DNA from: Bacteriovorax sp.
GTDB lineage: Bacteria; Bdellovibrionota; Bacteriovoracia; Bacteriovoracales; Bacteriovoracaceae
Assembly: GCA_018060625.1 (NCBI GenBank)
Contig: JAGOVS010000001.1
Coordinates: 1-64,000 of the forward strand
Length of the DNA stretch: 64,000 bases
Reading direction: 5' to 3'
The notes under the pieces are model-generated. The model was not told the DNA's origin, did not search any database, and worked only from the letters and a program-made list of their open reading frames with translations. This document shows, in pieces, positions 11,974 through 30,500 of this stretch; the first letter of the stretch is position 1, and each line of letters begins with the position of its first letter. The translations under genes were made by a program, and so were the position numbers.

Positions 11974-12002
11974 TTGAATTCTCTAATGGGCAGTGCTATT
12001 TA
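11974..12002 (+). promoter_or_regulatory. Possible extended -10 promoter for the phosphonate operon
   Basis: TTGAAT (11974-11979), a 17-base spacer and TATTTA (11997-12002) with a TGC directly before it (extended -10). It lies 29 bases upstream of the ATG of the first phosphonate-operon gene. The hexamers are imperfect, so this is tentative. Confidence 0.4.
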
Positions 12003-12031: not shown

Positions 12032-12961
12032 ATGCTTAACGACAACTTTTTTTACTCATTTTCGGGTGAAGCTCAAAACGAAATTTATGATTATATCAAG
12101 GCCCTTCATGTTTATAACAAACTAGAAGAGGCGAAACTACCTGACAGTGATGATTGCCCAACTTTTAAGCGAGAAGTTGAGGAAGTGAGAAACGAATTAG
12201 AAAATGGAAAGCGAATTGTCATCGTTAAACCTTTCATCGATCTTCACAATAAATACACAATTCAAGAGCAGAGAACAATCAGTTGGTTAATTGGAAATGT
12301 CTTAGGTGAGGCCCTTGTTCAAAACGAAGCGGGAGAGAAGGCCATTCTTGTTTTTGATCGTGATAGAAAAAATTCTATGGCCCAAGGGGCCCGCTATCAT
12401 CAAACTCGGGAAGGGGGAACAATACATACTGACAATGTCAACGTTCCATTTGTATGGGAATACCTTGTTCTCGCTTGTATTTCTCCGGCCATGTCAGGGG
12501 GAGAAAATATCTTGGTCAATGGGTTATATGTTCATAAGATTTTAAAAGAAAAACATTCAGATGTTTTAGCAATACTTGAGAAAAATTTTTGCTGGGAACA
12601 AAGAGGAGTGGCCGATGCTACCTATGAAGCGCCAGTGATCTCTTATAACCAAAAAGGTGAACCTGTGTTTAGGCATCTTCGTCCATACATGGAGTCTGCT
12701 CATCAAAAAATGAATCGTCCTTTAACAGACGAACAAATGTATGCACTTGATACGTTAGATTCCATTCTAGAGCATTCAGATAATCAATATCGGCACAGCT
12801 TTAAGGCCGGAGAAATTTTGTTAACTTATGATTCTCAAGTTCTTCATGGGCGCACTTGCTTTTCAGATGCATTTAATGCCCTAACGATCCACGATTGGAA
12901 AAAAGATCACCATCGACCACTTAAAAGAACGATGGATCGTTTATGGATAAAAAAACAATAG
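12032..12961 (+). CDS. TauD/TfdA-type Fe(II)/2-oxoglutarate oxygenase, candidate AEP hydroxylase
   Basis: A 309-residue enzyme with a double-stranded beta-helix fold of the TauD/TfdA/GBBH class. The iron ligands are visible as HTD at residues 132-134 and distal H272 in LHGRTCF. The 2-oxoglutarate-binding arginine is probably in the C-terminal RTMDRLW. The ATG at 12032 has AGGATA upstream and is preferred over a GTG at 11993. It heads an operon whose next six genes include every step of aminoethylphosphonate synthesis. TauD-family enzymes such as PhnY hydroxylate C1 of 2-aminoethylphosphonate. By context it may make 1-hydroxy-2-aminoethylphosphonate here, but it could hydroxylate a lipid or another intermediate. 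The class is secure, the substrate inferred. Confidence 0.8.
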   Translation: MLNDNFFYSFSGEAQNEIYDYIKALHVYNKLEEAKLPDSDDCPTFKREVEEVRNELENGKRIVIVKPFIDLHNKYTIQEQRTISWLIGNVLGEALVQNEAGEKAILVFDRDRKNSMAQGARYHQTREGGTIHTDNVNVPFVWEYLVLACISPAMSGGENILVNGLYVHKILKEKHSDVLAILEKNFCWEQRGVADATYEAPVISYNQKGEPVFRHLRPYMESAHQKMNRPLTDEQMYALDTLDSILEHSDNQYRHSFKAGEILLTYDSQVLHGRTCFSDAFNALTIHDWKKDHHRPLKRTMDRLWIKKQ

Positions 12962-12968
12962 GAAGCAT

Positions 12969-13712
12969 ATGTCGAATTTAACTGCACTTATTTTAGCCGC
13001 GGGATATGGATCGCGTATAGCCGATGTTACAACTGATCCAAAATGTTTACTTAAAGTAAATGGAAAGTCCTTGATTGATTGGCACCTCCAAGCACTTAAG
13101 AATGTCGGGATTAAAAATATCGTCGTCGTTACGGGCTATAAGCGCGATGTTTTGGAAGACTATCTTACAACGTACAAGAAAGATTTTGATATCCAAATTG
13201 CTATCAATGATGATTATCGGGTCAAAGGAAATACGTATTCTTTTTATTATGGATTAGAGAAAACGCAGGGAGATTTTCTGCTTTTTGATGCAGATCTTAT
13301 TTATGAAGAAAGCATTTTAAGGGACTTTGTTGAGGATAAATCAGCGAATCAAATATTAGTCGGTGAAAGTTCAATTGATGATATTGAATGCTCTAAGGCC
13401 ATGGTGGATGGATTAGGTTTTGTTCGCATGACTATTGATAAGCGAGCTGTCTCTGAAGAAGAAAACGCTCGACTGAGTTTTGCAGGGGAGGCCATTGGGA
13501 TCTTAAAATTCTCTAAGAATTATAGAAATGATATGTACCAGGCCTGTAAAGATTTTCTGGCCAATGAGGCTAATATTTCAAAAAACTGGGAACACGTTAT
13601 GAACGAATTCCTGCTTACGCATGATATGAATGTCCATCACACACTCAGTGAGCGATGGGTGGAAATAGATAATAAGGCGGATCTGGAAAAGGCCAAAAGA
13701 CTGTTTGAATGA
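12969..13712 (+). CDS. Nucleotidyltransferase, LicC-like (probable CTP:phosphonate or phosphocholine cytidylyltransferase)
   Basis: The protein has 247 residues of the NTP_transferase family. The signature LAAGYGSR is followed by DPKCLLKVNGK, and an FDADLIY segment carries the metal-binding aspartate. LicC-type members activate phosphocholine with CTP. In this operon the natural substrate is 2-aminoethylphosphonate or its hydroxy derivative, giving CMP-AEP for the phosphatidyltransferase encoded next. A second nucleotidyltransferase domain is fused to the PEP mutase three genes on, so the two may divide substrates. It starts seven bases after the oxygenase stop, and its own stop overlaps the next ATG. 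Confidence 0.82.
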   Translation: MSNLTALILAAGYGSRIADVTTDPKCLLKVNGKSLIDWHLQALKNVGIKNIVVVTGYKRDVLEDYLTTYKKDFDIQIAINDDYRVKGNTYSFYYGLEKTQGDFLLFDADLIYEESILRDFVEDKSANQILVGESSIDDIECSKAMVDGLGFVRMTIDKRAVSEEENARLSFAGEAIGILKFSKNYRNDMYQACKDFLANEANISKNWEHVMNEFLLTHDMNVHHTLSERWVEIDNKADLEKAKRLFE

Positions 13713-14584
13713 ATTGGTTAATAGAATACAAAAAGTCTCTTAAAAATATTCATGCGGAAGAGCCGCTGGATGTCTATCTCTATCGGCCAATGGCCTTTAT
13801 CATTGTCAAAGCCCTCTACTCAACTTCGCTTACTCCAAACCAATATTCATTGTTGGCCTTGTTGTCTGGAATTGCTGCAGGGGGGTGCTTTTTGCAAGGA
13901 ACTTACCTCGGATTGCAATGGGGGGGGTTTTTCTTTTTGCTTTTTGCCATTCTTGATTGCTGTGATGGTATGGTGGCCCGATTAAAAAAAAATGGAACTG
14001 AATTTGGGCGTCTCATTGATGGGATTGTCGATTATACCGTTAACATGATTGTTTATATCACCCTGGCCCTTGGGATGAAGAGCAGTTTAGGGATTGAGGC
14101 GCCAATCCAAGTGTGGGTCTTAGTGGTGCTTGCCGGCTTTTCCAAGGCCGTTCATTCGATTTCTTATGATCATTATTTAAGCGAGTATCTCGCCTATGAA
14201 AAAGGAGATAGTGGGTTTGTTCTCCAAGAAATCAAAATTTTAAAAGAGAAAATTTTGAACGCACAAAAAATGGATGCACCAATAATGAGAAGAATCGCCC
14301 TAAGACTCTATTTAGGTTATTCTGTTTTGCAAGCTGGAAGCGCAAAACGTAAATTAATTTATGATTCTAAACTTTATTGTGAAAAAAATTTATTGGCCTT
14401 AAGACTTTGGTCACTTATTGGTCCTACGACTCATATGACAGTTCTCATTTTATCTTTTCTTTTTGGTCGACCAGATGTTCTCTTTTTTTATGCCATTGTC
14501 TTTGGCAATATTTGGCTTCTCTTGATGTTTGGATATCAATTGAAAATGAATGATCAGTTGGGAAGAAAGGGGACGTTGAGATGA
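13709..14584 (+). CDS. CDP-alcohol phosphatidyltransferase family membrane protein
   Basis: The protein has 291 residues with several membrane segments (about 32-80, 112-145 and two near the C-terminus). The complete family motif D-x2-D-G-x2-A-R-x8-G-x3-D-x3-D is present at residues 83-108. These enzymes exchange a CMP-activated group with an alcohol. With CMP-AEP as donor this protein could attach aminoethylphosphonate to diacylglycerol or ceramide, making a phosphonolipid; attachment to a glycan is the alternative. The reaction class is clear, the acceptor is inference. ATGA overlaps on both sides indicate coupled translation. Confidence 0.87.
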   Translation: MNWLIEYKKSLKNIHAEEPLDVYLYRPMAFIIVKALYSTSLTPNQYSLLALLSGIAAGGCFLQGTYLGLQWGGFFFLLFAILDCCDGMVARLKKNGTEFGRLIDGIVDYTVNMIVYITLALGMKSSLGIEAPIQVWVLVVLAGFSKAVHSISYDHYLSEYLAYEKGDSGFVLQEIKILKEKILNAQKMDAPIMRRIALRLYLGYSVLQAGSAKRKLIYDSKLYCEKNLLALRLWSLIGPTTHMTVLILSFLFGRPDVLFFYAIVFGNIWLLLMFGYQLKMNDQLGRKGTLR

Positions 14585-15216
14585 TTGCATTTCTCATCGG
14601 TCTGATAATCGGATTTCTCATGTGTATTCCGGTTGGTCCTATTAACGTCTGGGTTGTAAATACATTAATTAAGCATAATTTTCGTTCAGCATTCTCAATT
14701 GCTTTGGGCGGATCATTGATGGACTTCCTGTATTTTATGATTATTTTGACAGGTCTTCACCTCTTTGATTTTTCAGATAGAACTATTTTGATTTTAAAAT
14801 TAGTTGGCGTGCTTTTTCTTTTTCTTTTTGGATTAAAAGAATTATTAATCAAAAAACAGAATTTTGATTTTGATGAAAATGTTAAGAAAAAAGTCCCAAA
14901 GGCGGCTAGCTTTTTTCTTCTTGGAGTTCTCATTTATTCTTCGAATCCAACGTTGGTGGCAACAATGTCTGGTCTGGCGGCAGTTATAAAATCATGGAAT
15001 GCATTTAATACAACATTTATTAATTATTTTGCCCTTTCATTAGGGATTGCAGTGGGATCAGCAAGTTGGTTCTATGTTCTATTGAGAATTGTAAGTAAAT
15101 ACCAAAACAAAATACCGGAACGCTTTTTTATTAATTTCTCACGAGCGTGTGGGGCACTGATTATTCTTTTTAGCCTCTACATGGCCTTTAATGTTTATAA
15201 GGAAAACTTTGTATGA
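14581..15216 (+). CDS. LysE/RhtB-family exporter
   Basis: A 211-residue integral membrane protein with about six hydrophobic segments and the family's N-terminal signature region [12 protein letters not shown]. LysE proteins export amino acids and similar zwitterions. Lying inside the phosphonate operon with ATGA overlaps at both ends, it could move aminoethylphosphonate or a related compound, or act on a finished product. The substrate cannot be read from sequence. Confidence 0.8.
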
Positions 15217-16850
15217 AAAATCCAACAATGAAAAAAACGACTCAATTGCGAAATATGTTGATGTCTAACGAACTTGAATTTTTAATGGAAGCTCACAATG
15301 GGATGTCTGCTAAAATCGCTGAAGAAGCAGGTTTTAAAGGTATTTGGGGTTCTGGACTTTCTATTTCTGCGGCCCTTGGAGTTCGCGACAATAACGAAGC
15401 ATCGTGGACACAAGTCCTAGAAGTTGTCGAGTTTATGAGTGATGCGACGAGAATTCCTATATTGCTAGACGGGGATACGGGATACGGAAATTTTAACAAC
15501 ATGAGAAGACTTGTAACAAAACTGGAGCAACGAGGGGTGGCCGGGGTTTGCATTGAAGATAAAATTTTTCCTAAGACAAATTCATTTCTTAGAACAGAGG
15601 CACAACCTCTAGCAGACATAGAAGAATTTTGTGGAAAAATCAAGGCAGGACAAGATACTAAGCTTGATGACGACTTTAATATCATTGCCCGAGTGGAAGC
15701 CTTAATTGCTGGTTGGGGAATGGGAGAGGCCCTTAAGAGGGCCGAAGCCTATCGACTTGCTGGTGCCAATGGTATTTTGATGCATTCTAAAATCTCAAAG
15801 GCCGATGAAATTTTAGCGTTTATGAAAGAGTGGGGAGAGCGTAGCAAAACGTGTCCGATTGTTATTGTTCCAACAAAATATTACTCAACTCCAACAAATG
15901 CTTTTAGAGAGGCCAATGTCTCAGTTTGTATTTGGGCCAATCATCAAATGCGTGCAGCAATCTCTGCCATGCAGAATGTGACAGCGACTATTTTTAAAGA
16001 GCAATCACTCATTAATATTGAGGATAAAGTAGTTTCGGTAAAAGAAGTCTTTCGTCTTCAAAATGACAGCGAGCTTGAACTTGCTGAAAAACTTTATTTG
16101 TCTGTCGCTGATGCCGATCGACCTCGGGCCATTTTCTTGGCCGCTTCTAGGGGAGCTGAGCTCAAAGAATTAACAGAGAACTGCCCAAAAGTTTTAATTG
16201 AGATCAATGGCAAACCACTTATTGAGCAATCGATAGATTCTTTTTATGAGCACGACATTAAAGATATTTCGATTGTGACGGGCTATAAGAAAGAAGCCTT
16301 CAAGTTTCAAAATATTAAATATGTAAACAATGAAAACTATGAAAATACGAGTGAGCTTTCTTCATTGATTTTGGCCAAAAAGGAAATTGTTGAAAATTGT
16401 GTCATTTCCTACGGAGATATTTTATACCGTAAATACATCCTCTCAAGACTTCTAGAGGAGAAGGGCGATATTACAATTGTTGTTGATGCCACGGTTGCTC
16501 AAAGAGAGCCTCACTATGTTGGTGATTTCGTAACTTGCTCTAGGGCCCATACCAAAAATTTCAATGATACAACGGCAGAATTAAAGGCCATTGGCTTTGG
16601 AAAAGCACAAGATCACAAAGAGTCTCATGGGGAGTGGATTGGATTAATCAAAACAAATAAAGTGGGTTCTGAAACATTGTCTAAAACACTGGTGGAATTA
16701 TCAACTAAAGGTGATTTTAATAAAATGAAACTTCCAGACTTAATGAATGCATTGCTGGAGAAAAAAGTTAAAATCAATGTGATGTTTATAGATGGGCATT
16801 GGATGGATGTAGATACATATGCTGATGTGACAAAAGGGCAGACTTTTTAG
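15213..16850 (+). CDS. aepX: Phosphoenolpyruvate mutase fused to a nucleotidyltransferase domain
   Basis: Two-domain protein of 545 residues. The N-terminal part (about 10-285) is PEP mutase of the isocitrate-lyase superfamily, which forms the C-P bond by rearranging PEP to phosphonopyruvate. The diagnostic [10 protein letters not shown] lies at 115-124 and [10 protein letters not shown] at 84-93. The C-terminal part (about 304-545) is a nucleotidyltransferase fold, as in PntC-type enzymes that make CMP-AEP. Its signature loop reads [13 protein letters not shown] rather than the usual LAAGxGSR, though the following [11 protein letters not shown] is normal. The gene overlaps the LysE stop and stands 30 bases before the decarboxylase gene. 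Confidence 0.93.
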
Positions 16851-16880
16851 TGAATATTAAATTATGGAGAATAAAATAAA

Positions 16881-18038
16881 ATGATTTCAGCAGAAAAATT
16901 TCTAAATCCAGCAAGAGAGTTAGGATTTAATTTTTATACAGGGACACCTTGTTCTTATTTAAAACCTTTTATTAATTATGTTATTGATACAGATGGTTTT
17001 GATTTTTATGATAGTGTTAATGAAGGAGATGCAGTTGCTATTGCAGCAGGAGCGACTGTTGCGGGCAAACGTGCAGTGGTAATGTTTCAAAACTCTGGTC
17101 TTGGAAATGCCGTTAATCCTCTGACATCCCTCACGTATACCTTTAATCTTCCAGTGATGGTTATAACAACTCTTCGGGGAGAGCCTGGAGGAGCAGCTGA
17201 TGAGCCTCAACATGAGCTGATGGGGCAGATAACCATTGCCATGCTTGAAACGATGAAACTTAAATGGGCCTATTTTCCACAGACAGAAGAAGAAGTGATA
17301 CCAGCACTTTCGGCAGCTGATGAGTATATGAAAAAAAACAATCAGCCCTTTGTTTTTGTCATGAGAAAAGATGATATTTCTGATTACAAACTTCAGAAAA
17401 AGGCGGCCCCTTCTAAAAAAGATTTCTCGATAAATCATGCAGATCATTTTGAGCTAGATTATAAACAGCGTACAACGAGAACTCCAGTCTTAGAAGTCGT
17501 GCAAAAGGTTCTCGGCCAAAAGGTCGCGGTCATTGCAACTACAGGGAAAACGGGACGAGAACTTTATGAAGTTGGAGATCTGGAGAATCAATTCTATATG
17601 GTTGGTTCGATGGGGTGCGCACTGGCCTTCGGGTTTGGCTTGGCCATTTCCAAACCTTCACTAAAGGTTTTGGTCATTGACGGAGATGGCGCCCTGTTAA
17701 TGCGAACAGGTTCAATGGCCACGGTTGGAGCTTATCAACCAAAGAACCTCATTCATCTTCTCATTGATAATGAGGCCCATGACTCTACAGGAGGACAAGG
17801 AACGGTTACAGGTGGGGTCTCTTTTGGGGCCATTGCCAAAGGTTTTGGTTATGAAAAAGTTTTCACAACCGATTTATTAGAAAAATTTAATTCGATACTG
17901 TCTGAAGTAAATACGAATTCTGGTTCAGTTTTCATTCATCTTAAAGCGCAAAAAGGATCACCTGAAAAACTGGGAAGACCAAAAGTCACTCCGGCAGAAG
18001 TCTCTCTTCGCTTTGCTGAATTTGTGAGAAGAGGTTAA
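16881..18038 (+). CDS. aepY: Phosphonopyruvate decarboxylase (thiamine diphosphate)
   Basis: It converts phosphonopyruvate to phosphonoacetaldehyde, the step that drives the unfavourable mutase equilibrium. The 385 residues include the conserved catalytic region NEGDA (47-51), the signature QNSGLGNAVNPLTSL (70-84), and a C-terminal ThDP/Mg motif GDG (268-270) with N297. All match known Ppd enzymes in position and length. It lies between the mutase and the transaminase, three bases before the latter. Confidence 0.95.
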   Translation: MISAEKFLNPARELGFNFYTGTPCSYLKPFINYVIDTDGFDFYDSVNEGDAVAIAAGATVAGKRAVVMFQNSGLGNAVNPLTSLTYTFNLPVMVITTLRGEPGGAADEPQHELMGQITIAMLETMKLKWAYFPQTEEEVIPALSAADEYMKKNNQPFVFVMRKDDISDYKLQKKAAPSKKDFSINHADHFELDYKQRTTRTPVLEVVQKVLGQKVAVIATTGKTGRELYEVGDLENQFYMVGSMGCALAFGFGLAISKPSLKVLVIDGDGALLMRTGSMATVGAYQPKNLIHLLIDNEAHDSTGGQGTVTGGVSFGAIAKGFGYEKVFTTDLLEKFNSILSEVNTNSGSVFIHLKAQKGSPEKLGRPKVTPAEVSLRFAEFVRRG

Positions 18039-18040
18039 TC

Positions 18041-19153
18041 ATGAGTCAAGTGAGAAGAAATATACTCCTAAATCCTGGGCCGGCAACCACAACTGACACA
18101 GTTAAAAAGGCCATGGTTGTCCCAGATATTTGTCCGCGTGAGTTAGAATTTGGCGAACTGACTCTTTCAGTTCGCAATGACCTCATTAAGGCCGCTCATG
18201 GTGAAAAAAATCACACATGTGTGATGCTTACTTCTTCAGGGACGGGAGGAGTTGAAGCTTGTCTTACTTCAGTTGTTCCTCAAGATAAAAAAGTGCTTAT
18301 TCTTAATAATGGAGCCTATGGTGAGAGAATGCAGAAGATTTGTGATGCTTATGGAGTAGCTCACATTGATTATAATCAAGTCAGGGGAAAAGCATTGGAT
18401 CTCGCCGATGTAGAAGATCTATTGGTGAAGCATTCAGGAGAGATTAGCCATCTCGCTTTTATCCATCATGAGACCACCGTCGGAATTCTTAATCCTCTTT
18501 CGGCCATTTCACAATTGGCCAACAAATATAATGCAGAAATCATTGTAGATGCGATGTCTTCTTTTGCTGGAGTGATGATCGATGTGGAAAAAGATAATAT
18601 TCATTATCTGATTTCATCATCTAATAAATGCATCCAGGGGATGGCAGGAATAAGTTTTGTGATCGCGAATTTAAAATCACTTTTAAAAACAAAAGAGATT
18701 AAGGCACGAAATTTTTATTTTAATTTGTTAGAAAATCATTTGTACTTAGAGAAAAACAAGCAATTTCTCTTCACTCCTCCAGTTCAAACGCTCTATGCTT
18801 TAAGACAGGCCATTAATGAATATTTTGAAGAGGGGCCAGAGAATCGTTTTGCTCGTTATTCATCTATGTACGAGATAATGAAGAAAAAAATTGTTGAACT
18901 TGGCTTTCAGTTTCTCGTTGAAGAAAAAGACCATGCGAAATTGTTAACGGCTATCGTAGATCCAGAAAGTCCTCATTATTCCTTCAATGAAATGCATGAT
19001 TATTTATTCGAGCGTGGCTTTACTATCTACCCTGGTAAGGTTGGGAATGCTAATACCTTCAGGCTCTCAAATATTGGCGCCATTTATCCGAAAGATATAG
19101 AAGATTTCTTGAAAGTATTTGAAGAATACTTGCGTATGAAAAAAATAATTTAA
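18041..19153 (+). CDS. phnW: 2-aminoethylphosphonate transaminase
   Basis: A class-V-fold PLP enzyme of 370 residues. The start LLNPGPATTTDTVK is typical of the AEP transaminase/alanine-glyoxylate group. The PLP lysine is K196 in SSSNKCIQG, and D170 in the preceding IIVDAMSS strand contacts the cofactor. In this setting, beside PEP mutase and Ppd, it should run in the biosynthetic direction and aminate phosphonoacetaldehyde to 2-aminoethylphosphonate, rather than degrade AEP. No phosphonatase or C-P lyase genes are nearby, which supports biosynthesis. Confidence 0.92.
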   Translation: MSQVRRNILLNPGPATTTDTVKKAMVVPDICPRELEFGELTLSVRNDLIKAAHGEKNHTCVMLTSSGTGGVEACLTSVVPQDKKVLILNNGAYGERMQKICDAYGVAHIDYNQVRGKALDLADVEDLLVKHSGEISHLAFIHHETTVGILNPLSAISQLANKYNAEIIVDAMSSFAGVMIDVEKDNIHYLISSSNKCIQGMAGISFVIANLKSLLKTKEIKARNFYFNLLENHLYLEKNKQFLFTPPVQTLYALRQAINEYFEEGPENRFARYSSMYEIMKKKIVELGFQFLVEEKDHAKLLTAIVDPESPHYSFNEMHDYLFERGFTIYPGKVGNANTFRLSNIGAIYPKDIEDFLKVFEEYLRMKKII

Positions 19154-19154
19154 A

Positions 19155-19754
19155 ATGCTAAATAGGAAACTTTCAAAAAGCATTGAAACCTTTTACGCGG
19201 AAATGTCCCAGGTCTTTAGCGATTTTCAGCAGAAAAGTATGCTGGCCTGCCCGCCTGGTTGTGGGCAGTGTTGTTTTAAACCAGATATCTGTTGTTCACC
19301 TTTTGAGTTACTTCCACTTGCTCTGCATTTGCTTGATGTAGGTCTTGCTGAGTTCTTTTTAGAGAAAGCAAGAGATCAAAAAGATGGGCGTTGTCCTTTG
19401 TTAGAAATTGAAGATGAGAAGAGTGGAAAAGGCAGATGTACGCAGTATGCTTATCGTCCCTTTATTTGCAGGGCCTTTGGCGTCAGCGCTCGTTATGGAA
19501 AAATGAGCAAAATTGATTACTCCATCTGTCGCGTGCTAAAATTAAATAATGAACATTCAGCAGCACTCACTCATGCTTATGATGAAGTTCCGTTTATTGA
19601 AATTTGGAGAAAGAAGTTTGAAGTGCTTAATCCTCATTTGCAAGAAAGGGAAATACCTATAAACCAAGCACTCGCTATTGTTTTAGAGAAGGTGTTAATT
19701 TGGAATTCTTATCAGATTGCCAGTTCCCCTGATGATACTTACTTTTCGATCTGA
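19155..19754 (+). CDS. YkgJ-family cysteine-cluster protein
   Basis: The protein has 199 residues with the family's metal-chelating pattern: CPPGCGQCCF near residue 35, a further CC pair, CPLLE, and CRAFG. YkgJ proteins probably bind Zn or an Fe-S cluster; no reaction is established. It begins one base after the transaminase stop and so belongs to the phosphonate operon by position. Whether it takes part in phosphonate metabolism is unknown. Its end overlaps the opposing L,D-transpeptidase gene by 16 bases. Confidence 0.85.
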   Translation: MLNRKLSKSIETFYAEMSQVFSDFQQKSMLACPPGCGQCCFKPDICCSPFELLPLALHLLDVGLAEFFLEKARDQKDGRCPLLEIEDEKSGKGRCTQYAYRPFICRAFGVSARYGKMSKIDYSICRVLKLNNEHSAALTHAYDEVPFIEIWRKKFEVLNPHLQEREIPINQALAIVLEKVLIWNSYQIASSPDDTYFSI

Positions 19755-20982: not shown

Positions 20983-23900
20983 GTGGGTAACGATGAATGG
21001 TTAGTGGAAATGATTAAAAAAATGAAATCAATAGGTTCTTTATTTTATGAATCAGTCATGAATCATAAAAACAATATTGCTCTCATCGATAAAAATTTTC
21101 AAGTGTCTTACCAAGATCTCTATAAACGAGCTTCTCAAATAAGTGTAGCTCTCGACAAAAAAAGTGAAGTACAGGATGTCGTTGCGGTATGTACTGAAAA
21201 AAATCAATATGCCATTTATTCACTCTTGGGAATTATGCAATCAGGCCGAGTGTATTTGCCAATCGATTTGGAATATCCAGAGGATCGAATAAAGTTTCTA
21301 CTCTTAGACTCTGATGCAAAACTTATCTTAGTGGATTATGCCACACATGAAAAAGTTTCAAAAATGATCAGGGAGCATCAACTCAAAATAGAAGTTATTT
21401 GTGTGCCAGACTTAAAAAATAGTTCGGTCTCTAGAGATTATCTAAATTCAGTATCCGAAAATGACCTTGCATATCTCATTTACACATCAGGTTCGACAGG
21501 GTTACCGAAGGGAGTAGAGGTTGAGCATCGCCAGTTATTTCCCTTGTTAGATTGGTGCAATCAGAAAACGATGGCCCTTCATTGTTTATCAACGTTACAA
21601 TATTCTCCTTTAAGTTTTGATCCTTCATTGCTTGAAATTCTGACTACTCTGTTGAATGGTAAAACGTTATTCCTGCTAGATACTAAACAACGAAAAGATA
21701 TTTCCTTTTTGCTTACATTTATTATTGCCAACAACATTGAAAGGATCTTTGTTCCGATAGCTATTTTGAATTTGTTATCTGAGGAAATGCTTGATAGTCA
21801 TAAAATTCCAACGGCATTGAGAGAAATCAATTGCGGTGGCGATAGGATGGTCATTTCAGAGGCGATACGTTTGGCGTTGAAGAAAATGCCAGGGATTCGA
21901 GTCAATAATCAGTACGGACCAACTGAGGCAAGTATAATGGTCACCAACAATATTCTCATTGGTAATCCGGATCAATGGCCTCAATACCCGGGCCTTGGAG
22001 AAGGAATTGAGGGTGTCGAGTTGATGGTTGTAGATGAGAAATTTGAAAAAGCAGATAAGGGAGAATTATTATTAAGTGGAGATATGCTTGCTCGTGGTTA
22101 TAGAAATAGAGCGGAGCTAACGATAGAGAAATTTATTTTTTTAAATGGTAAGCGGTATTATCGAACGGGGGATTTGGTTAACCGTGAGCTTAATGGAATT
22201 AATTTTTTAGGAAGAATTGACAATCAGCTAAAAATCAATGGAGTCCGATTAGAGAGAGGGGAAATTGAAAATGCAATTGCGCAATTTTTAATGATTCCTC
22301 AAGTCGCTGTAGAGCATGTTATCGATAAAGAGTTGAGCTACTTGGTTGCTTTTATCCCCTCCCGGTTTAATAATATTGAGCTAAAAAAATACCTTTTAGG
22401 TCAATTGCCTTCAGCGATTGTTCCAAATGATTTTATTGAAGTAAGCGAATTTCCGCTAACATCAAATGGAAAGATTAACCATAGATTGTTAATTGAGAAT
22501 TATTTGAAACAGAAGAATGCTTCTGCTCAAAGTAGATTGAAGATTGATTCAGAGAACGAAATAGTCGATGTTTTTAAAAAGGTATTGGGCCTTTCTTATC
22601 TAACAGATGAAAATTCATTTTTTGAATTGGGAGGGACATCGCTCCAAGCTATCAATGCCTTGAGGCTCATTAACAAAATTCCAGGGGTTAAGATAACGAT
22701 CGCTGATTTTTACTCTCATCCTACAGCTGAAAAAATCTTAAAGTTAAAAAATAAATCAATGTCGTTACTCATTCAAAAAGAAGGGAAGAAGGACCATTTA
22801 AATAACCGTCAAGTAGCGATTGTCGGGATGTCCTGTCGATTTCCACATGCAGAAAACCTAGAAAGCTTCTGGCAACTCATTTTAAATAAAGAATCAGGGA
22901 TTGATACTTTTCAAAGAGAAGAAATGCTCAAAGAGGCATTGTCATCAGAGACAAAAGAGCGCAACTATGTATTTGCGAGAGGGATTTTACAAAACATTGA
23001 TCACTTTGATGCGAATTTTTTCGATGTTTCTCCTAGGACAGCAGAACTTTTTGATCCTCAAATGAGGCTAATGCTAGAGGAAGCCGTTCATGGATTAGAG
23101 GCCGCAGGAGTTGCTTCTTATAAATCTGATGAAAAAATTGGTGTCTATGTAGGAATGTCTAATAATAACTATTTAGAGCAAATTAAAGAGATGCATCCCG
23201 AAAAATTAAAGTCCATTGGAGACTGGTCAGTGGCCCTTTTGAATGAAAAAGATTATGTGGCGACACATATTTCTCATAAGCTTAATTTGCGTGGGCCATC
23301 GCTATCAATTCACACGGCATGCTCTACTTCTCTCGTCGCTATTATTAATGCTTATCGTGCCATTGTTGATGGGGACTGTGATATTGCCCTTGCTGGAGGA
23401 GTGAACATAAACTCTCTGGGGAAAGTGGGGCATTTATACAGCGAGGGGGGAATTCATTCCAAAGATGGGCAAACAAGAAGTTTTGATGAAAGTTGCTCTG
23501 GTACCGTTTTTAGTGATGGTGTTGGGATTGTAGTACTTAAAGACTTAGATAGGGCCATTGAAGATGGTGATCAAATATATGCCCTTGTGAAGGGAGCAGC
23601 CGTTAATAATGATGGAAAAAATAAAAAAAGTTTTACAGCGCCAAGTGTTGATGGGCAAAAAGAGGTCGTTCAGGAAGCCACTCTAAATGCTCAGATTGAT
23701 CCCTACACTATAGAATTGATTGAGGCCCATGGAACTGGAACACCAGTAGGTGACCCAATAGAAGTTCAGGCCTTATGCGAAGCTTGGGAAGAAATTGGAG
23801 ATGTCAAATTAGGCTCAAGGACGGCATTGGGGAGTGTTAAAAGTCAAATAGGTCATACCGTTGCGGCATCAGGTGTGGCGGGATTAATAAAGGCGACGCT

Positions 23901-26900
23901 TGCGATTAAGTATAAAACTATTCCAGCATCAATTAATTTTGAAAAATTAAACCCACTTATAGAATTAGAAAAGTCCCCATTTTATATCAATACCAAAAAT
24001 AAAAAATGGGATTCGATATTCCCAGTTAGGCGGGCCGCAGTTTCATCTTTTGGTGTAGGTGGAACAAATGCTCATCTTATTTTAGAAGAGTACCAACCTT
24101 CATTATCTATAAATGAAAAAAATGAAAATTCTTTGAAACAACCATTTTATCTTTTTTGTTACTCTGCCCGATCACCTCAGGCGCTTATTAGTTGTCTGAT
24201 GCAATGGAGAGATTTTTTAGGAGATAAAAAAAATGATTCATATTCCTTAGAGGATTTATCTTATTCATTGTATGTTGGAAGAAATGATTATGAGTTTCGA
24301 GTAAGTTTTGTCATTGAAAATCGGGAGCAACTAATTAGTGAGATTAGTAAGAAAATTAACCTCCCTTTATCTATTTTGAAAACTAAAAAGGTTAAGTCTC
24401 TTTGGGGTTTTTCTGGACAAGGAGAAGATTGCATTGGACTGGGGATACAATTATATAAAATGGATAGCATCTTCAGAGAATCATTTGATAAGTGTCTAAA
24501 AGTTTTACGTGAAAAACATCAAGTGGATCTATGGGACTTGATGAATAAAGATAATGAACTAAACCAAACAATTTTTTCTCAGCCATATATTTTTTCATAT
24601 CAATACTCGTTGGCCATGGCCTTAATGTCCTTTGGTGCTCGTGCGGATTATTTCCTTGGACACAGTTTGGGAGAATATGTCATAGCCGTTTTGAACGGTA
24701 TTTTTAATTTGGAAGAAGCTCTTGAGTTAGTGGCCAATAGAGCTCGCTTGATGCAGGCAATGCCTTTTGGTTCCATGTTATCAGTAAAAATGTCTGAAAA
24801 TTTCTTGAAAGAAATTCTACAAGAGGCACAACCAGAATTTAAAATCGATATGGCCGTTTTCAACGCAAAGGATCTGATTGTCGTTTCTGGGGAAAAAGAA
24901 GATATAGAGCATTTTGAATCTCTGCTAATTGATCGAGGGATTAAATCAAAAAAACTAAAGACTTCTCACGCTTTTCATTCTCGAATGATGGAGGGAGTTT
25001 TAGATGAATTCGATAAAATATTAGAAAAGACTCATCTTAAACGACCATCTTCAAAAATAGTTTCAACTCTAACAAGCAATTGGGAAGATGAGATTTTTTC
25101 TCAAAAAAACTATTGGAAAGAGCATATCGTTAAACCTGTACGATTTTGGCAGGGGCTAGAGAGAGTGGACGCAGAGCCATTTGATCGGATTATTGACTTT
25201 GGTCCCAGAAATGTTTTTTCACAGCTTTGTTTTCAGACACTCAGTCACAAGCAATCGAGAAAAGAAATTGTGAGTTTATCGGCCAACGAAAAAGGAAATG
25301 AGGCCCGTCAATGGTTAACAGGGGTCGGGAAATTATGGGAAAAAGACATAGAAATTAATTTGTCTCGAATCTTTAAGAATTTAGGGAAAAAAGTTTCAAT
25401 CCCACTTTATCCATTTGAGCATTCATCCTTTTGGGCCGGATACGATTTAGTAAATAACCAAAAGTCATTATTAGAAAATAGAGCTACTGAGAAAGGACTA
25501 ATTATGGATCAGAGAAAAGAGAAAATTTGTGATGATTTGATAAATATTTTTGCTGAAGTCTCGGGCATGAGAAGAGATGAAATTAATCCAGATGCTCAGT
25601 TTTTAGAGCTTGGTTTTGATTCGTTAATGCTAACTCAAATTGCATTGGAGACAGAGCGCTTTTTTCAGGTAAAAGTAAGCTTTAGGCAATTGCTAGAAAC
25701 TTATGTAACGGTGAATTTATTTGCGGATTATATTAATTCACAATTTAAGGGGCCAATGATTGAAGAAGTGATTCCATTAGAGGCTACTTCAACTTCTCCA
25801 TCCACTTTGCATAATCATTATTCAACTAGTCAAAGTGAAATTGAAGGAGTCATTATAAAGCAATTAGAGCTTATGAAGACTCAGCTTGAATTCCTTCAGA
25901 GAGGAAGAGTTAATACAGAGTTACATTCAGTCAAAATGCCTGTGCAAGATTCTTTTAGGCCTAAGGAAAATTCTGCACCTATCACTGAAGAAATCAAGGC
26001 AACTGTTGATACGGCGAAAATTGCTTTTGGAGCACAGGCAAAAATTAAAACAACGAGAAATAATAATAGCTCTAATCATGAAAAAGAAGCTGTTCTAAAC
26101 TTGATGCATAAGTATATTGAAAGGACGAAGTCTTCAAAAGATTTTACCCAAAAACATAGATCGCAGAACGCAGACCCAAGAGTTGTCACCGGTTTTCGAC
26201 CTGAAATAAAAGAAGTTATTTATCCAATAGTAGTCAATCGCTCAAAAGATCAGCATTTATGGGATCTAGATAATAACGAATATATTGACATGATCTGTGG
26301 CTTTGGATCAAATTTTTTTGGTAATCAAAATGTGAGAATAAACAAGGCCCTGCATGAGCAACTTGATAGCGGCTTTGAAATTGGACCACAACATGAATTG
26401 GTTGGAGAGTGTGCATCTTTAATTTGTGAGCTCTCGAAAATGGATCGAGCGGCATTTTGTAATACAGGATCAGAAGCTGTCTTAGGCGCTTTGAGAATTG
26501 CGCGGGCAGTGAGTGGCAGAAAGAAAGTTGTGATGTTCAAAGGCTCTTATCATGGCATCAATGATGAAGTTATAGTGAGAGGTCTTGATGATGGCCGCGC
26601 CATGCCTGCAGCTGCTGGTATTAATCGAACAAGTGTTGCCGACATCATTGTTTTAGAATATGGAACAGAAGCTTCATTGATTCAGATAAGACAAATGGCC
26701 AACGAATTGGCCGCGGTCATTGTAGAACCCGTCCAGTCTAGAAGAACAAATTTTAGACCAATTGAGTTTTTAAGAGAATTGCGTAAAATAACTGAGGACA
26801 CAAAAACGGCATTTATTTTTGATGAAGTTATCACAGGATTTAGAATTGCTCCAGGAGGAGCACAAGAATATTTCGGTATCCGGGCAGATATTGCGACCTA

Positions 26901-27558
26901 TGGAAAAATCATAGGGGGGGGGATGCCGATTGGTGTAATTGCTGGATCTCGAAAATATTTAGATGCTCTTGATGGCGGATTCTGGCAATTTGGAGATGAA
27001 AGTGTTCCTCAAGTAGGTTTGACTTATTTTGCGGGTACATTTGTTCGTCATCCTCTTGCTTTACGGGCCATGCGTGAAGCCCTTCTGATACTCAAAGAAG
27101 GAGGCCAGCTTCTCTACGATAGAATTAACTCAACGGCGAATGAGTTTGTTTATGAGTTAAATTTATTCGCAGAGCTAATGGGGGCCCCTATTGTGATAGA
27201 TCATTTTGGAGGAGTTTTGAAACCAAGATTTCTAGAAAATGGCGAGAATTATGATTTATTTTTCTTGATAATGCGAATGAAAGGGGTTCATTGTTATGAT
27301 GGCTTTCCGTGGTTTATTACCCTTGCTCACACAGATGAAGATTTAAAATTAGTCATGAATAAATACAAAGAAGCAATTATTGAAATGCAAAAACTAAGAC
27401 TTTTCCCAAAGAATATTCAGGCCCATGACCCAGAAGAGAGAGACTATATCACGCCTCCTTGTTTGGGGGCCAAATTAGGAAGAGATGAAAACAATCGTCC
27501 ATGTTGGTTTCAAGAAGATAATGATAAAATTGGAAAGTTAAAGAAGATATTAAAGTAG
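20983..27558 (+). CDS. Hybrid NRPS-PKS: A-PCP-KS-AT-ACP-aminotransferase
   Basis: A 2191-residue megasynthase. Domains: adenylation (about 20-505; YTSGSTG from 167, D213 in the selectivity pocket, YGPTEAS, YRTGDL, NGK lysine); PCP (S553 in LGGTS); ketosynthase (C780 in HTACSTS, H916, H958); acyltransferase (S1228 in GHSLG, HAFH at 1329-1332, which points to malonyl-CoA); ACP (S1547 in GFDSL); a low-complexity linker; class-III PLP aminotransferase (about 1735-2170, K1975). No ketoreductase or dehydratase is present, so the beta-keto group should be transaminated, as in iturin/mycosubtilin-type MycA. D213 suggests an amino-acid starter rather than a fatty acid. The start is uncertain: GTG 20983, ATG 21010 or ATG 21022. 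It is followed one base later by the second synthetase. Confidence 0.93.
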   Translation: MGNDEWLVEMIKKMKSIGSLFYESVMNHKNNIALIDKNFQVSYQDLYKRASQISVALDKKSEVQDVVAVCTEKNQYAIYSLLGIMQSGRVYLPIDLEYPEDRIKFLLLDSDAKLILVDYATHEKVSKMIREHQLKIEVICVPDLKNSSVSRDYLNSVSENDLAYLIYTSGSTGLPKGVEVEHRQLFPLLDWCNQKTMALHCLSTLQYSPLSFDPSLLEILTTLLNGKTLFLLDTKQRKDISFLLTFIIANNIERIFVPIAILNLLSEEMLDSHKIPTALREINCGGDRMVISEAIRLALKKMPGIRVNNQYGPTEASIMVTNNILIGNPDQWPQYPGLGEGIEGVELMVVDEKFEKADKGELLLSGDMLARGYRNRAELTIEKFIFLNGKRYYRTGDLVNRELNGINFLGRIDNQLKINGVRLERGEIENAIAQFLMIPQVAVEHVIDKELSYLVAFIPSRFNNIELKKYLLGQLPSAIVPNDFIEVSEFPLTSNGKINHRLLIENYLKQKNASAQSRLKIDSENEIVDVFKKVLGLSYLTDENSFFELGGTSLQAINALRLINKIPGVKITIADFYSHPTAEKILKLKNKSMSLLIQKEGKKDHLNNRQVAIVGMSCRFPHAENLESFWQLILNKESGIDTFQREEMLKEALSSETKERNYVFARGILQNIDHFDANFFDVSPRTAELFDPQMRLMLEEAVHGLEAAGVASYKSDEKIGVYVGMSNNNYLEQIKEMHPEKLKSIGDWSVALLNEKDYVATHISHKLNLRGPSLSIHTACSTSLVAIINAYRAIVDGDCDIALAGGVNINSLGKVGHLYSEGGIHSKDGQTRSFDESCSGTVFSDGVGIVVLKDLDRAIEDGDQIYALVKGAAVNNDGKNKKSFTAPSVDGQKEVVQEATLNAQIDPYTIELIEAHGTGTPVGDPIEVQALCEAWEEIGDVKLGSRTALGSVKSQIGHTVAASGVAGLIKATLAIKYKTIPASINFEKLNPLIELEKSPFYINTKNKKWDSIFPVRRAAVSSFGVGGTNAHLILEEYQPSLSINEKNENSLKQPFYLFCYSARSPQALISCLMQWRDFLGDKKNDSYSLEDLSYSLYVGRNDYEFRVSFVIENREQLISEISKKINLPLSILKTKKVKSLWGFSGQGEDCIGLGIQLYKMDSIFRESFDKCLKVLREKHQVDLWDLMNKDNELNQTIFSQPYIFSYQYSLAMALMSFGARADYFLGHSLGEYVIAVLNGIFNLEEALELVANRARLMQAMPFGSMLSVKMSENFLKEILQEAQPEFKIDMAVFNAKDLIVVSGEKEDIEHFESLLIDRGIKSKKLKTSHAFHSRMMEGVLDEFDKILEKTHLKRPSSKIVSTLTSNWEDEIFSQKNYWKEHIVKPVRFWQGLERVDAEPFDRIIDFGPRNVFSQLCFQTLSHKQSRKEIVSLSANEKGNEARQWLTGVGKLWEKDIEINLSRIFKNLGKKVSIPLYPFEHSSFWAGYDLVNNQKSLLENRATEKGLIMDQRKEKICDDLINIFAEVSGMRRDEINPDAQFLELGFDSLMLTQIALETERFFQVKVSFRQLLETYVTVNLFADYINSQFKGPMIEEVIPLEATSTSPSTLHNHYSTSQSEIEGVIIKQLELMKTQLEFLQRGRVNTELHSVKMPVQDSFRPKENSAPITEEIKATVDTAKIAFGAQAKIKTTRNNNSSNHEKEAVLNLMHKYIERTKSSKDFTQKHRSQNADPRVVTGFRPEIKEVIYPIVVNRSKDQHLWDLDNNEYIDMICGFGSNFFGNQNVRINKALHEQLDSGFEIGPQHELVGECASLICELSKMDRAAFCNTGSEAVLGALRIARAVSGRKKVVMFKGSYHGINDEVIVRGLDDGRAMPAAAGINRTSVADIIVLEYGTEASLIQIRQMANELAAVIVEPVQSRRTNFRPIEFLRELRKITEDTKTAFIFDEVITGFRIAPGGAQEYFGIRADIATYGKIIGGGMPIGVIAGSRKYLDALDGGFWQFGDESVPQVGLTYFAGTFVRHPLALRAMREALLILKEGGQLLYDRINSTANEFVYELNLFAELMGAPIVIDHFGGVLKPRFLENGENYDLFFLIMRMKGVHCYDGFPWFITLAHTDEDLKLVMNKYKEAIIEMQKLRLFPKNIQAHDPEERDYITPPCLGAKLGRDENNRPCWFQEDNDKIGKLKKILK

Positions 27559-27559
27559 C

Positions 27560-30500
27560 ATGAATATATATTTATCAAATTATTTAAATGTCACTAAAGA
27601 TGAAGAATTTTTATTGGCAGTCCCAACCACAGAATCTCAACGAGAGATCTGGAATTCTATTTCATTTGAACCAATGGCCAGTCTTGCCTTTAATGAGTCT
27701 ATCGTTATTGAATTTGATGGTGTGCTTGATATTTTTGCACTCAAGAAGGGCATCAACGATCTTATTGAAAGACACACCATTCTTAGATCCGTTTTTTCAT
27801 CAGATGGACAATATCAATTTGTGAGAAAGAATTTCACTTTTGACTTAAGTCATTTTGACATTTCAACAGAAATGAATCCGTCATCAATATTCAGAAAAAT
27901 TCAAGAAGATGAAATAAATAGAGAGTTTGATTTAGTTTATGGGCCAATTATTCGTTTTCTATTAGTCACAGAATCAAGTGACAAGAACTATCTTCTCATA
28001 TCGGCCCATCATCTTATTTGTGATGGATGGTCTTGGGCGGCCATTAATTCTGACTTAGGTTATTTTTACAATTGTCACAAATTCAATAGGCTCCCTCAGC
28101 TGAAACCGGCTTATCAGTTTTGGCAATTTGTCCAAAAACAAAGAGAGTTTAAGGCCGAAAATGAAAGAAGTATTCAGTACTGGAAAAATCAATTTGAAAC
28201 AATCCCAAGTCCTATAAATTTTCCCTTAGAAAAAGTGAGACCTTTAGTCCGCTCTTTTGAGTCAAAAAGATATGATCAGAAAATTGAGTCAAGTATCGTA
28301 AAGAATCTCAAAAGAAGAAGTATTGAGTGGGGAGTAAGTCCCTATCAATTAATTTATTCTCTCTATCTTGTGGCCCTCTATGAAATTACTGGTCAGAGAG
28401 ATTTGGTCGTTGGTATTTCTACTGCAGGCCAGAGCTTGGTTGGCAAAAAGGATCTAGTCGGACATTGTGTGTCGCTGCTACCCATTCGTTTTGTTGTTGA
28501 TGATCGATTTACTTTTAAGCAACATGCTCAAAATGTAAAAAAGGTTATGCTAGACGCATTAGAAAATCAATATTGTACCTTTGGAGAAATACTAAGAAGC
28601 TTAAGACTCGAGAGAGACGTTTCAAGTATCCCTCTCGTAAGTTGCGTTTTTAATATTGATATCCAGCCCGCCAATCAAGGGTTAAATTTTGAAGATTTAA
28701 AAGCGCGGTTTTCAACAGGAAAACGGAATTTTGAAAATTTTGAAATGTTTTCCAATCTTACAATGATTGGAGATCAGATGACGGTTGAAGTTCAATATAG
28801 TATGAATATTTTCTATCAACACCAAATTCAAAAATGGATAAATGTATTCACCTCTTTATTGGAAAATGTTTCAAGTGAGAATTTTAGTATTAATGAACTA
28901 TTGCCTAGCGTTGATTTTGTTCCGAGCACTGAAAATAAGAAAAGAGTAGACCATAATGTGAATACAGGACTAAAAAATTTTCAGTATCGCCAAGAAGTTC
29001 GGGAGAGGTTAAAAGGCATTTGGGAAGCGTTGCTTGATCGTTATGATGGTGTGGAAATAAATGATGATAGCAACTTTTTCAATTTAGGAGGACACTCTCT
29101 AATTGTTTCCGACATGATTGTTGAAATTCAAAAATGTTTTTCACTGAAAATAACAATGAAGGATATTTTTTTGAATCCTCAGTTGGGTCGTCTCGCAGAA
29201 GTCCTTTCAGTTAAATCCTTAGGTACAAAAACGGATAATCCCTTTGAAATAAAATCACACTATAAAGGAGGTCTTGCTCCGCTTTCTTGGCAGCAAATGC
29301 GTTGTTGGTATATTCAGAAACTCAATCCGGATTCTTCTCTTTTTAATTTAGCGGCTATGTTTCATATTCACGGGGCAGTTGACAAGGGATTGTTTCGAGA
29401 GGCCCTCTTTCTTTTCTTAGATCGACATTTAATGACTCGAGCAAAATTGGTTCTTCAGGATGGTATGCCTTATTTTAAATTTATAAAATCTTCTCAAGTC
29501 GTTATCGAAGATCAAGAAATGAATCAGGCAGATTCAAAAAAACTGAAAGAAGATCTACACTTACAATTAGATTCTTTTTCAAGGGCCCCCATCGATCTAG
29601 ATAAAGATCCTCTGTTTTATGGAAAGATCTATTTTAATGGTGATCGAGACATCTTTTTTTATACAAAGATACATCATCTTATATGGGATGGATGGAGCTA
29701 TGATATTTTGATGGAAGAGTTGGCAAGCATCTATAGCAAACTTCAAAAAAATGGATCGTTTGAACAGGTTGAGAAAGAATCCGTCATTACTTATCCTGAC
29801 TATTCTTTATGGCAAGAAGAATTTAAAAAGTCGACTCACTATCAGATAGAGTTTCAATTCTGGAAAGATTATTTAAAAGGGGAGTTACCCGTTCTCGAAT
29901 TACCATTTGACTTTCCAAGGGATGTAAAAAGGTACGATGCAGATGGTTTTTTTGTGAGCTGGAGCGAGGTAGAGGCAAAGACTCTTGAAGAAGTGGCCAT
30001 TAAAAACGGGACGACTTTATTTAGTTTATTAATGACCGCGTTCAAAATTCTTTTATCTCGTTATACAGGGATTGAGGATATAATTGTTGGCACACCTGTA
30101 CGAGGGAGACATCTGGAAGGTCTCAATTCGCTTATTGGTTATTTTGTAAATTCAGTGGCAGTGAGATCACAGATAAGTTCTCAGAAGTCATTTACCCATA
30201 ATTTAAAAAAAGTCAGTGAAAATCTCATTTCTGTTTTTGATCATTCCAACGTTCCCTTCGATGAGATTGTTAAAGAATTGAAAGTGGCCAGGAATCCTTT
30301 TCATACACCTGTCTATCAAGCTTTCATGATGTTTCAAGATGCTACCGCACGTAATGTAAAGTTTTTAGATTATGATTTTTCAGTAGTTCCATTCATCAGG
30401 GGTTCATCTCATACCGATTTAGACTTATGGATAAGACGAGATTCACATGGTATGAAAGGCGGCTTTGACTTTGACATCCATCGGTTTAAAAGGGAAACAA

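Follow-up and report, generated by a model that had tools for sequence, protein, structure and literature searches.

We analysed a 64,000-nucleotide stretch of DNA from Bacteriovorax sp. (assembly GCA_018060625.1, contig JAGOVS010000001.1, positions 1-64,000 of the forward strand; hereafter the window), in which eight adjoining genes form a compact operon that would direct the synthesis of 1-hydroxy-2-aminoethylphosphonate (HAEP) and its attachment to a lipid. All eight genes are on the + strand between 12032 and 19754, at intergenic distances of 7, -4, -4, -4, 30, 2 and 1 bases. Families were assigned with Pfam and NCBIfam profiles, and "equivalog" refers to a curated NCBIfam cut-off. An earlier note on this DNA had read the locus as a phosphonolipid operon of eight co-directional genes with short gaps or overlaps; its coordinates and layout hold (gaps of -4 to 30 bases), and its family calls agree with the Pfam and NCBIfam matches. 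The genes are as follows.

12032..12961, + strand: OG, an Fe(II)/2-oxoglutarate (2OG) oxygenase of the TauD fold (PF02668), predicted C1-hydroxylase of 2-aminoethylphosphonate (AEP)
12969..13712, + strand: CyT, a LicC/PntC-type cytidylyltransferase (NTP_transf_3, PF12804), predicted to make the cytidine monophosphate (CMP) conjugate of AEP or HAEP
13709..14584, + strand: CPT, a CDP-alcohol phosphotransferase (CDP-OH_P_transf, PF01066), predicted to transfer the head group to ceramide (or diacylglycerol)
14581..15216, + strand: LysE-family membrane transporter, accessory (PF01810, synteny)
15213..16850, + strand: PPM-NT, an N-terminal phosphoenolpyruvate (PEP) mutase (TIGR02320) joined to an NTP_transf_3-like domain with a degenerate motif (PF12804)
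16881..18038, + strand: PPD, phosphonopyruvate decarboxylase (TIGR03297)
18041..19153, + strand: AEPT, 2-aminoethylphosphonate aminotransferase (TIGR03301)
19155..19754, + strand: YkgJ-type CxxCxxCC protein, accessory (PF03692, synteny)

A comparison of this neighbourhood across relatives had been proposed as a check on the operon. Within the window's genus CPT is present in 13 of 14 genomes and PEP mutase in 14 of 14, and the order OG-CyT-CPT-LysE-PPM/NT is kept both there and in genomes from another six genera (G001, G002, G030, G069, G077 and G113), in which the identity of CPT falls to about 30%. Wherever the contig continues beyond PPM/NT, PPD and AEPT come next, AEPT being set apart from PPD in part of the window's genus; several operon carriers end at a contig boundary inside the locus. 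Exceptions to the order are a missing LysE gene in G113 and in G011, the latter a member of the window's own genus, and a relocated CPT in G015. At E ≤ 1e-20, OG was detected in 20 of the 369 genomes of the phylum, and those 20 are exactly the operon carriers. Because the order is conserved across divergent genera and OG is confined to operon carriers, the block is a functional unit and not a chance arrangement. The LysE gene and the YkgJ gene, the latter seen in the operon in the window's genus only, are taken to be accessory. In several relatives a gene of 650 codons separates PPD from AEPT; it was suspected of encoding a head-group transferase but proved to encode an M13 peptidase and is irrelevant to the pathway.

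The proposal that three core enzymes make AEP is well founded, as all three score above their curated equivalog cut-offs: PEP mutase with 399.9 bits against 319.6 (TIGR02320), PPD with 408.5 against 312.5 (TIGR03297), and AEPT with 418 against 361 (TIGR03301), the narrower PhnW model (TIGR02326) scoring AEPT below its own cut-off. The mutase also matches PDB entry 1m1b with 434 bits, and carries the EDKxxxxxNS motif that distinguishes PEP mutases within their wider family (PMC6697681). Together, these enzymes almost certainly synthesise AEP. Since PEP mutase and PPD act in biosynthesis, and the operon holds no phosphonatase, a role in AEP breakdown is disfavoured. A small secreted phosphonate antibiotic might be suggested by LysE, which could export a small molecule, and by the use of CMP conjugates in phosphonate antibiotic pathways (FrbH, Fom1; PMC6697681); however, CPT is kept in nearly all carriers, and we consider either of these two functions most improbable.

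Two nucleotidyltransferase-like domains are encoded in the operon. The free one, CyT, finds its best PDB matches in LicC (1jyk) and PntC (6pd1, aligned over residues 6-243), and its catalytic motif GXG(T/S)RX4-8PK is intact (GYGSR..PK; GYGSRIADVTTDPK at residue 12). The domain fused to PEP mutase, beginning at about residue 300 of PPM-NT, lacks the arginine of this motif, as do all listed PPM-NT orthologues that reach the motif and the corresponding proteins of Mycetohabitans and Roseomonas (L182, L184), where an intact free CyT accompanies the arginine-less fused domain. The missing residue corresponds to Arg15 of Tde-PntC, whose replacement by alanine leaves less than 10% of activity (PMC6697681). 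Thus, the fusion of PEP mutase with a nucleotidyltransferase described in the earlier note is present, but the catalytic arginine is absent, and the fused domain is probably not a cytidylyltransferase; it may be a pseudoenzyme or have another role. Since its own motif is intact and the fused domain lacks the catalytic arginine, CyT is likely the working cytidylyltransferase of the operon. CyT matches Tde-PntC (Rice 2019, PMC6697681) over its full length, and differs from it in having Asp107 in place of Glu104; the operon also differs in its second, degenerate domain fused to PEP mutase. In the alignment, the acidic residues D107 and E208 of CyT occupy two positions at which Tde-PntC contacts the amine of AEP. 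As E208 is shared with PntC and D107 with LicC, these residues give a mixed prediction for a preference between AEP and phosphocholine.

The oxygenase has the features expected of an Fe/2OG enzyme: the iron-site residues H132-x-D134 and H272 are invariant among its orthologues, as is R274, a candidate 2OG ligand. Its best solved relative by sequence is FrbJ (5eqn, titled 'phosphonate hydroxylase'), followed among the PDB profile matches by BBOX, TtnM and TmpA; DfmD and TmpA are weaker solved matches than FrbJ. A structure model (predicted local distance difference test, pLDDT, 80; low in quality over residues 115-135, where the HxD site lies) has TtnM and FrbJ as its nearest folds. TmpA is a 2-trimethylaminoethylphosphonate hydroxylase, and OG scores 48.9 bits against the NCBIfam TmpA equivalog model, whose cut-off is 400. 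FrbJ, TmpA and PhnY* thus provide a precedent for Fe/2OG hydroxylation of aminophosphonates, with FrbJ the closest and TmpA matched; identities are low, however, PhnY* is not among the matches of OG, and none of the three comes from a lipid pathway. Judged from these relatives, OG probably hydroxylates the phosphonate.

The position of hydroxylation is suggested by published lipid chemistry. The sphingolipid head group of Bacteriovorax (formerly Bdellovibrio) stolpii is given as 1-hydroxy-2-aminoethylphosphonate by Watanabe 2001 (doi 10.1007/s11745-001-0751-3), as cited in PMC8154272 and also in PMC6148460; the chemistry of this lipid is attributed to the same study and to Jayasimhulu 2007. 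Because the reported head group is 1-hydroxy-AEP, C1-hydroxylation of AEP would be needed, and we infer C1 as the site of OG action. The earlier note had named AEP as the product of the core enzymes: the route through AEP stands, but the final head group implied by OG is HAEP and not AEP. In another family of the phylum, G290 (L206:4122-10300) carries CyT-CPT-LysE-PPM/NT-PPD-AEPT without OG, together with a serine palmitoyltransferase (SPT) that is 54% identical; its head group is predicted to be plain AEP, and this OG-less operon fits a view of hydroxylation as a detachable tailoring step.

OG could instead hydroxylate a fatty acyl chain or long-chain base, leaving plain AEP as the head group. 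Hydroxylated chains are reportedly also found in B. stolpii sphingolipids, which counts in favour of such a role. However, OG adjoins CyT in the SAR11 genomes described below, where SPT was not found, its nearest solved relatives include phosphonate hydroxylases, and the Mycetohabitans cluster has an unrelated oxygenase in the equivalent position; we therefore consider chain hydroxylation improbable and retain the phosphonate as the predicted substrate of OG. Some operon-bearing genomes contain a second OG gene that stands alone, with 39-57% identity (L200:9741-10685, L201:8944-9888, L202:9738-10691, L203:9526-10476 and L204:3610-4518). These copies have HDR in place of HGR near the distal histidine, and their unrelated gene contexts gave no functional clue. 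Plasmid-borne relatives of OG are TauD proteins of 24-32% identity only.

CDP-alcohol transferases take a phosphoalcohol off CMP and attach it to a hydroxyl group. The perfect family motif noted earlier in CPT, DxxDGxxARx8GxxxDxxxD, is complete at residues 83-108, and the AF2 model of the protein (pLDDT 89.5) has AF2299 (4o6m) as its best fold match. Profile matches comprise AF2299, phosphatidylinositol phosphate (PIP) synthases and CEPT1/CHPT1. CPT resembles AF2299/IPCT-DIPPS and CEPT1/CHPT1 in fold, in motif and in being paired with a cytidylyltransferase, and differs from them in its extra C-terminal helices. A role for CPT and CyT in inositol lipid synthesis, raised by a weak similarity to IPCT-DIPPS, was rejected, because inositol clusters of the order contain CPT paralogues of their own. 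One such paralogue, at L091:6441-13011, is found with myo-inositol-1-phosphate synthase, LPG_synthase_TM, an NTP transferase and a HAD phosphatase, and these genes probably serve inositol lipid synthesis in the window's genus.

The phosphonate made by the operon is very probably attached to a lipid. The bacterial phosphonates studied so far are mostly glycan-borne (PMC6697681), and glycan genes lie near SAR11 and Prochlorococcus phosphonate clusters (PMC8931226), so that a polysaccharide, lipopolysaccharide or protein might be considered as the final carrier, with a polyprenol or sugar as the acceptor of CPT. The conserved gene set, however, includes neither LicD nor a glycosyltransferase, and the CDP-OH fold has a membrane-embedded active site. 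Moreover, G053 has PPM without CPT and OG, which marks the CPT-OG set as a separate version. Thus, glycan or protein decoration appears quite improbable, and the reading of the locus as a phosphonolipid operon is supported as the best one.

Ceramide is the likely main acceptor in the Bacteriovoracales. The genome that contains the window encodes an SPT (L125:1456-2655) whose best PDB relatives are SPTs (3a2b, 365 bits) and whose best NCBIfam model is SerpalmtaseCFB, below its cut-off (NF047600: 489.5 against 640). This gene is followed by those of a GNAT-like protein and an NAD-dependent, CerR-like epimerase, an arrangement that is kept across the order and that we take to resemble known bacterial ceramide loci, such as that of Caulobacter. 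With p values that ignore phylogeny, SPT is present in 19 of the 20 operon carriers compared with 48 of the order's remaining 109 genomes (p = 1e-5), and a sphingolipid-type desaturase is present in all six carriers outside the window's genus compared with 29 of those 109 (p = 6e-4). The sole SPT-less carrier, G011, is an incomplete metagenome-assembled genome (MAG). Two genomes also link the operon physically to sphingolipid genes. In G015, where the operon lacks CPT and CyT overlaps LysE directly, a CPT of 58% identity is located elsewhere, between a desaturase gene of PF08557 (Sphingolipid Delta4-desaturase) and a GNAT gene that is a paralogue of the one next to SPT (69% identity). In G016, the nearest relative of the G015 desaturase lies directly 5' of LysE-PPM-PPD. 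It is because of the window genome's own SPT, the co-occurrence counts and these two linkages that we favour ceramide; the link to B. stolpii sphingophosphonolipids that the earlier note had suggested gains support from the same SPT locus, the 19/20 co-occurrence and the G015 and G016 arrangements.

Diacylglycerol would be the alternative acceptor, in which case the product would be a glycerophosphonolipid of HAEP (or AEP) and ceramide a minor acceptor or none. It is the well-known acceptor of eukaryotic CDP-alcohol transferases, among them the CEPT1/CHPT1 enzymes matched by the CPT profile; a similar cluster occurs in Mycetohabitans, and the published Burkholderia/Nostoc proposal lists diacylglycerol and alkyl-acylglycerol (PMC5987646). 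Carriers of a related module in SAR11 without a detectable SPT are also consistent with a glycerolipid. In G015 and G016, nevertheless, sphingolipid genes adjoin CPT or its operon, SPT occurs in nearly every carrier, and the B. stolpii lipid is reported as a sphingolipid. We consider diacylglycerol unlikely and keep ceramide as the predicted acceptor.

The related SAR11 modules come from single-cell genomes in which OG, 48-51% identical, adjoins CyT and a CDP-OH transferase.

L119:6744-13783, L121:745-6180 and L124:9749-14552: OG-CyT with a CDP-OH transferase and a TylF-type methyltransferase

L119 and L121 have a PF01467-PEP mutase fusion; L119 and L124 encode a B12 radical SAM protein. No SPT was detectable in four SAR11 genomes with the module, which are partial. 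The acceptor in SAR11 must accordingly be other than ceramide, and the OG-CyT-CDP-OH module can serve another acceptor; on its own, the module would indicate transfer of a phosphonate onto a membrane acceptor. The SAR11 product may possibly be an undescribed hydroxylated and methylated phosphonate lipid or glycan.

A cluster of this type has been proposed before. In Fig. 7 of PMC5987646, adapted from Yu 2013, a cluster of a lichen Nostoc with a Burkholderia homologue is assigned to HAEP phosphonolipids; it is described there as comprising a CDP-alcohol transferase, an Fe(II)/2OG oxidase, an NTP transferase, pepM, ppd and AEPT, and all six components are likewise together in the window's operon. 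The main text of that paper does not name ceramide as an acceptor. Mycetohabitans rhizoxinica (L182) shares the architecture, including the fusion of PEP mutase to an NTP transferase. Its oxygenase, however, belongs to PF23169 and is not significantly similar to OG (BLAST E = 0.59), its CPT aligns with that of the window along no more than 111 residues, at 28% identity, and the place of the Bacteriovoracales LysE is taken by HpnL (PF03706), absent from the window's operon. By these comparisons, the cluster type is one already proposed for HAEP phosphonolipids, from which the Bacteriovoracales operon differs by an oxygenase of an unrelated family that was apparently recruited independently. A literature search of partial coverage found no paper that names the operon genes in Bacteriovorax or gives a gene set for the B. 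stolpii head group. The head group predicted from the window's operon is the one reported for B. stolpii, the genome of the window encodes an SPT, and records of congeneric relatives carry the name Bacteriovorax sp. The operon is also present on contig L114 of Bacteriovorax sp. BSW11_IV. No B. stolpii record was matched in the contig scan of the OG alignment, which used two peptide patterns and did not cover all species; this is not evidence of absence.

These elements can be combined into a pathway. By curated family assignment, PEP mutase, PPD and AEPT convert PEP to AEP. OG would then hydroxylate AEP, either free or as CMP-AEP and most likely at C1, to give HAEP, and CyT, from its motif and relatives, is predicted to form the CMP conjugate with cytidine triphosphate. 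CPT, by the reaction type of its family, would split the CMP conjugate, setting CMP free and joining the phosphonyl head group to a primary hydroxyl on a lipid. From the genome linkages, the acceptor in the Bacteriovoracales would most likely be ceramide supplied by the separate SPT-GNAT-epimerase locus, and a sphingophosphonolipid of the type known from B. stolpii would result.

Several points weigh against this pathway. It is read here from genes, whereas the B. stolpii lipid is known by its chemistry, and the majority of the compared loci come from MAGs. Identity of OG to known phosphonate hydroxylases is only 15-25%. The G016 contig begins inside the desaturase gene and may be misassembled, and to this are added the disregard of phylogeny in the co-occurrence statistics and the SAR11 modules without detectable SPT. 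On balance we still favour the whole chain, from AEP through HAEP and its CMP conjugate to a lipid that is most likely ceramide. More tentative, and rather less than probable, is the fullest version, in which the operon is the complete HAEP sphingophosphonolipid gene set, CPT a CMP-phosphonate:ceramide transferase, OG an AEP C1-hydroxylase of the TauD fold whose recruitment was independent of the Burkholderiales oxygenase, and the PPM-fused domain a catalytically dead pseudoenzyme that has been retained.

A further conserved feature lies upstream of the first gene.

11974..12002, + strand: promoter-like element TTGAAT-17-TATTTA with a TG extension, upstream of OG (conservation)

The sequence GTTGAATTCTCTA..TGCTATTT(T) is kept upstream of OG in several members of the window's genus, and the element GTTGAATTCTCTA..TGCTATTT is unique in the window (13-base core, at most one mismatch allowed). 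It is promoter-like, a putative promoter on the strength of its conservation; a scan for sigma-70 promoters gave counts no higher than those in shuffled sequence. As this element lies just upstream and orthologues begin with MLNDNF, the start of OG is placed at ATG 12032, in agreement with the earlier note, and GTG 11993, which would give the longest frame, was rejected. In G016 a near copy of the element (L075:645-690) is found before LysE instead, 3' of the desaturase gene.

Outside the Bacteriovoracales, a MAG labelled Methylococcaceae UBA2778 (L113, contig DEII01000130.1) carries OG-CyT-CPT-LysE-PPM, owing either to horizontal transfer or to a contaminating contig from the Bacteriovoracales. 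In the window, two large nonribosomal peptide synthetase/polyketide synthase genes follow the operon at a short distance (20983-33208), the first with AMP-binding, ketosynthase, acyltransferase and class III aminotransferase domains, and the second with condensation, AMP-binding and thioesterase domains.

In conclusion, we describe seven candidate genes for the head group of the C-P sphingolipid that a 2001 study reported in B. stolpii, and arrive at a specific chemical prediction, 1-hydroxy-AEP on ceramide. If true, a bacterial enzyme that places a phosphonate on ceramide would be identified, and the presence of two nucleotidyltransferases in each cluster would be explained. OG, CyT and CPT together would then serve as markers for HAEP producers, including SAR11 cells of the ocean, and such markers would be relevant to the phosphonate pool consumed by bacteria with PbfA and PhnZ.

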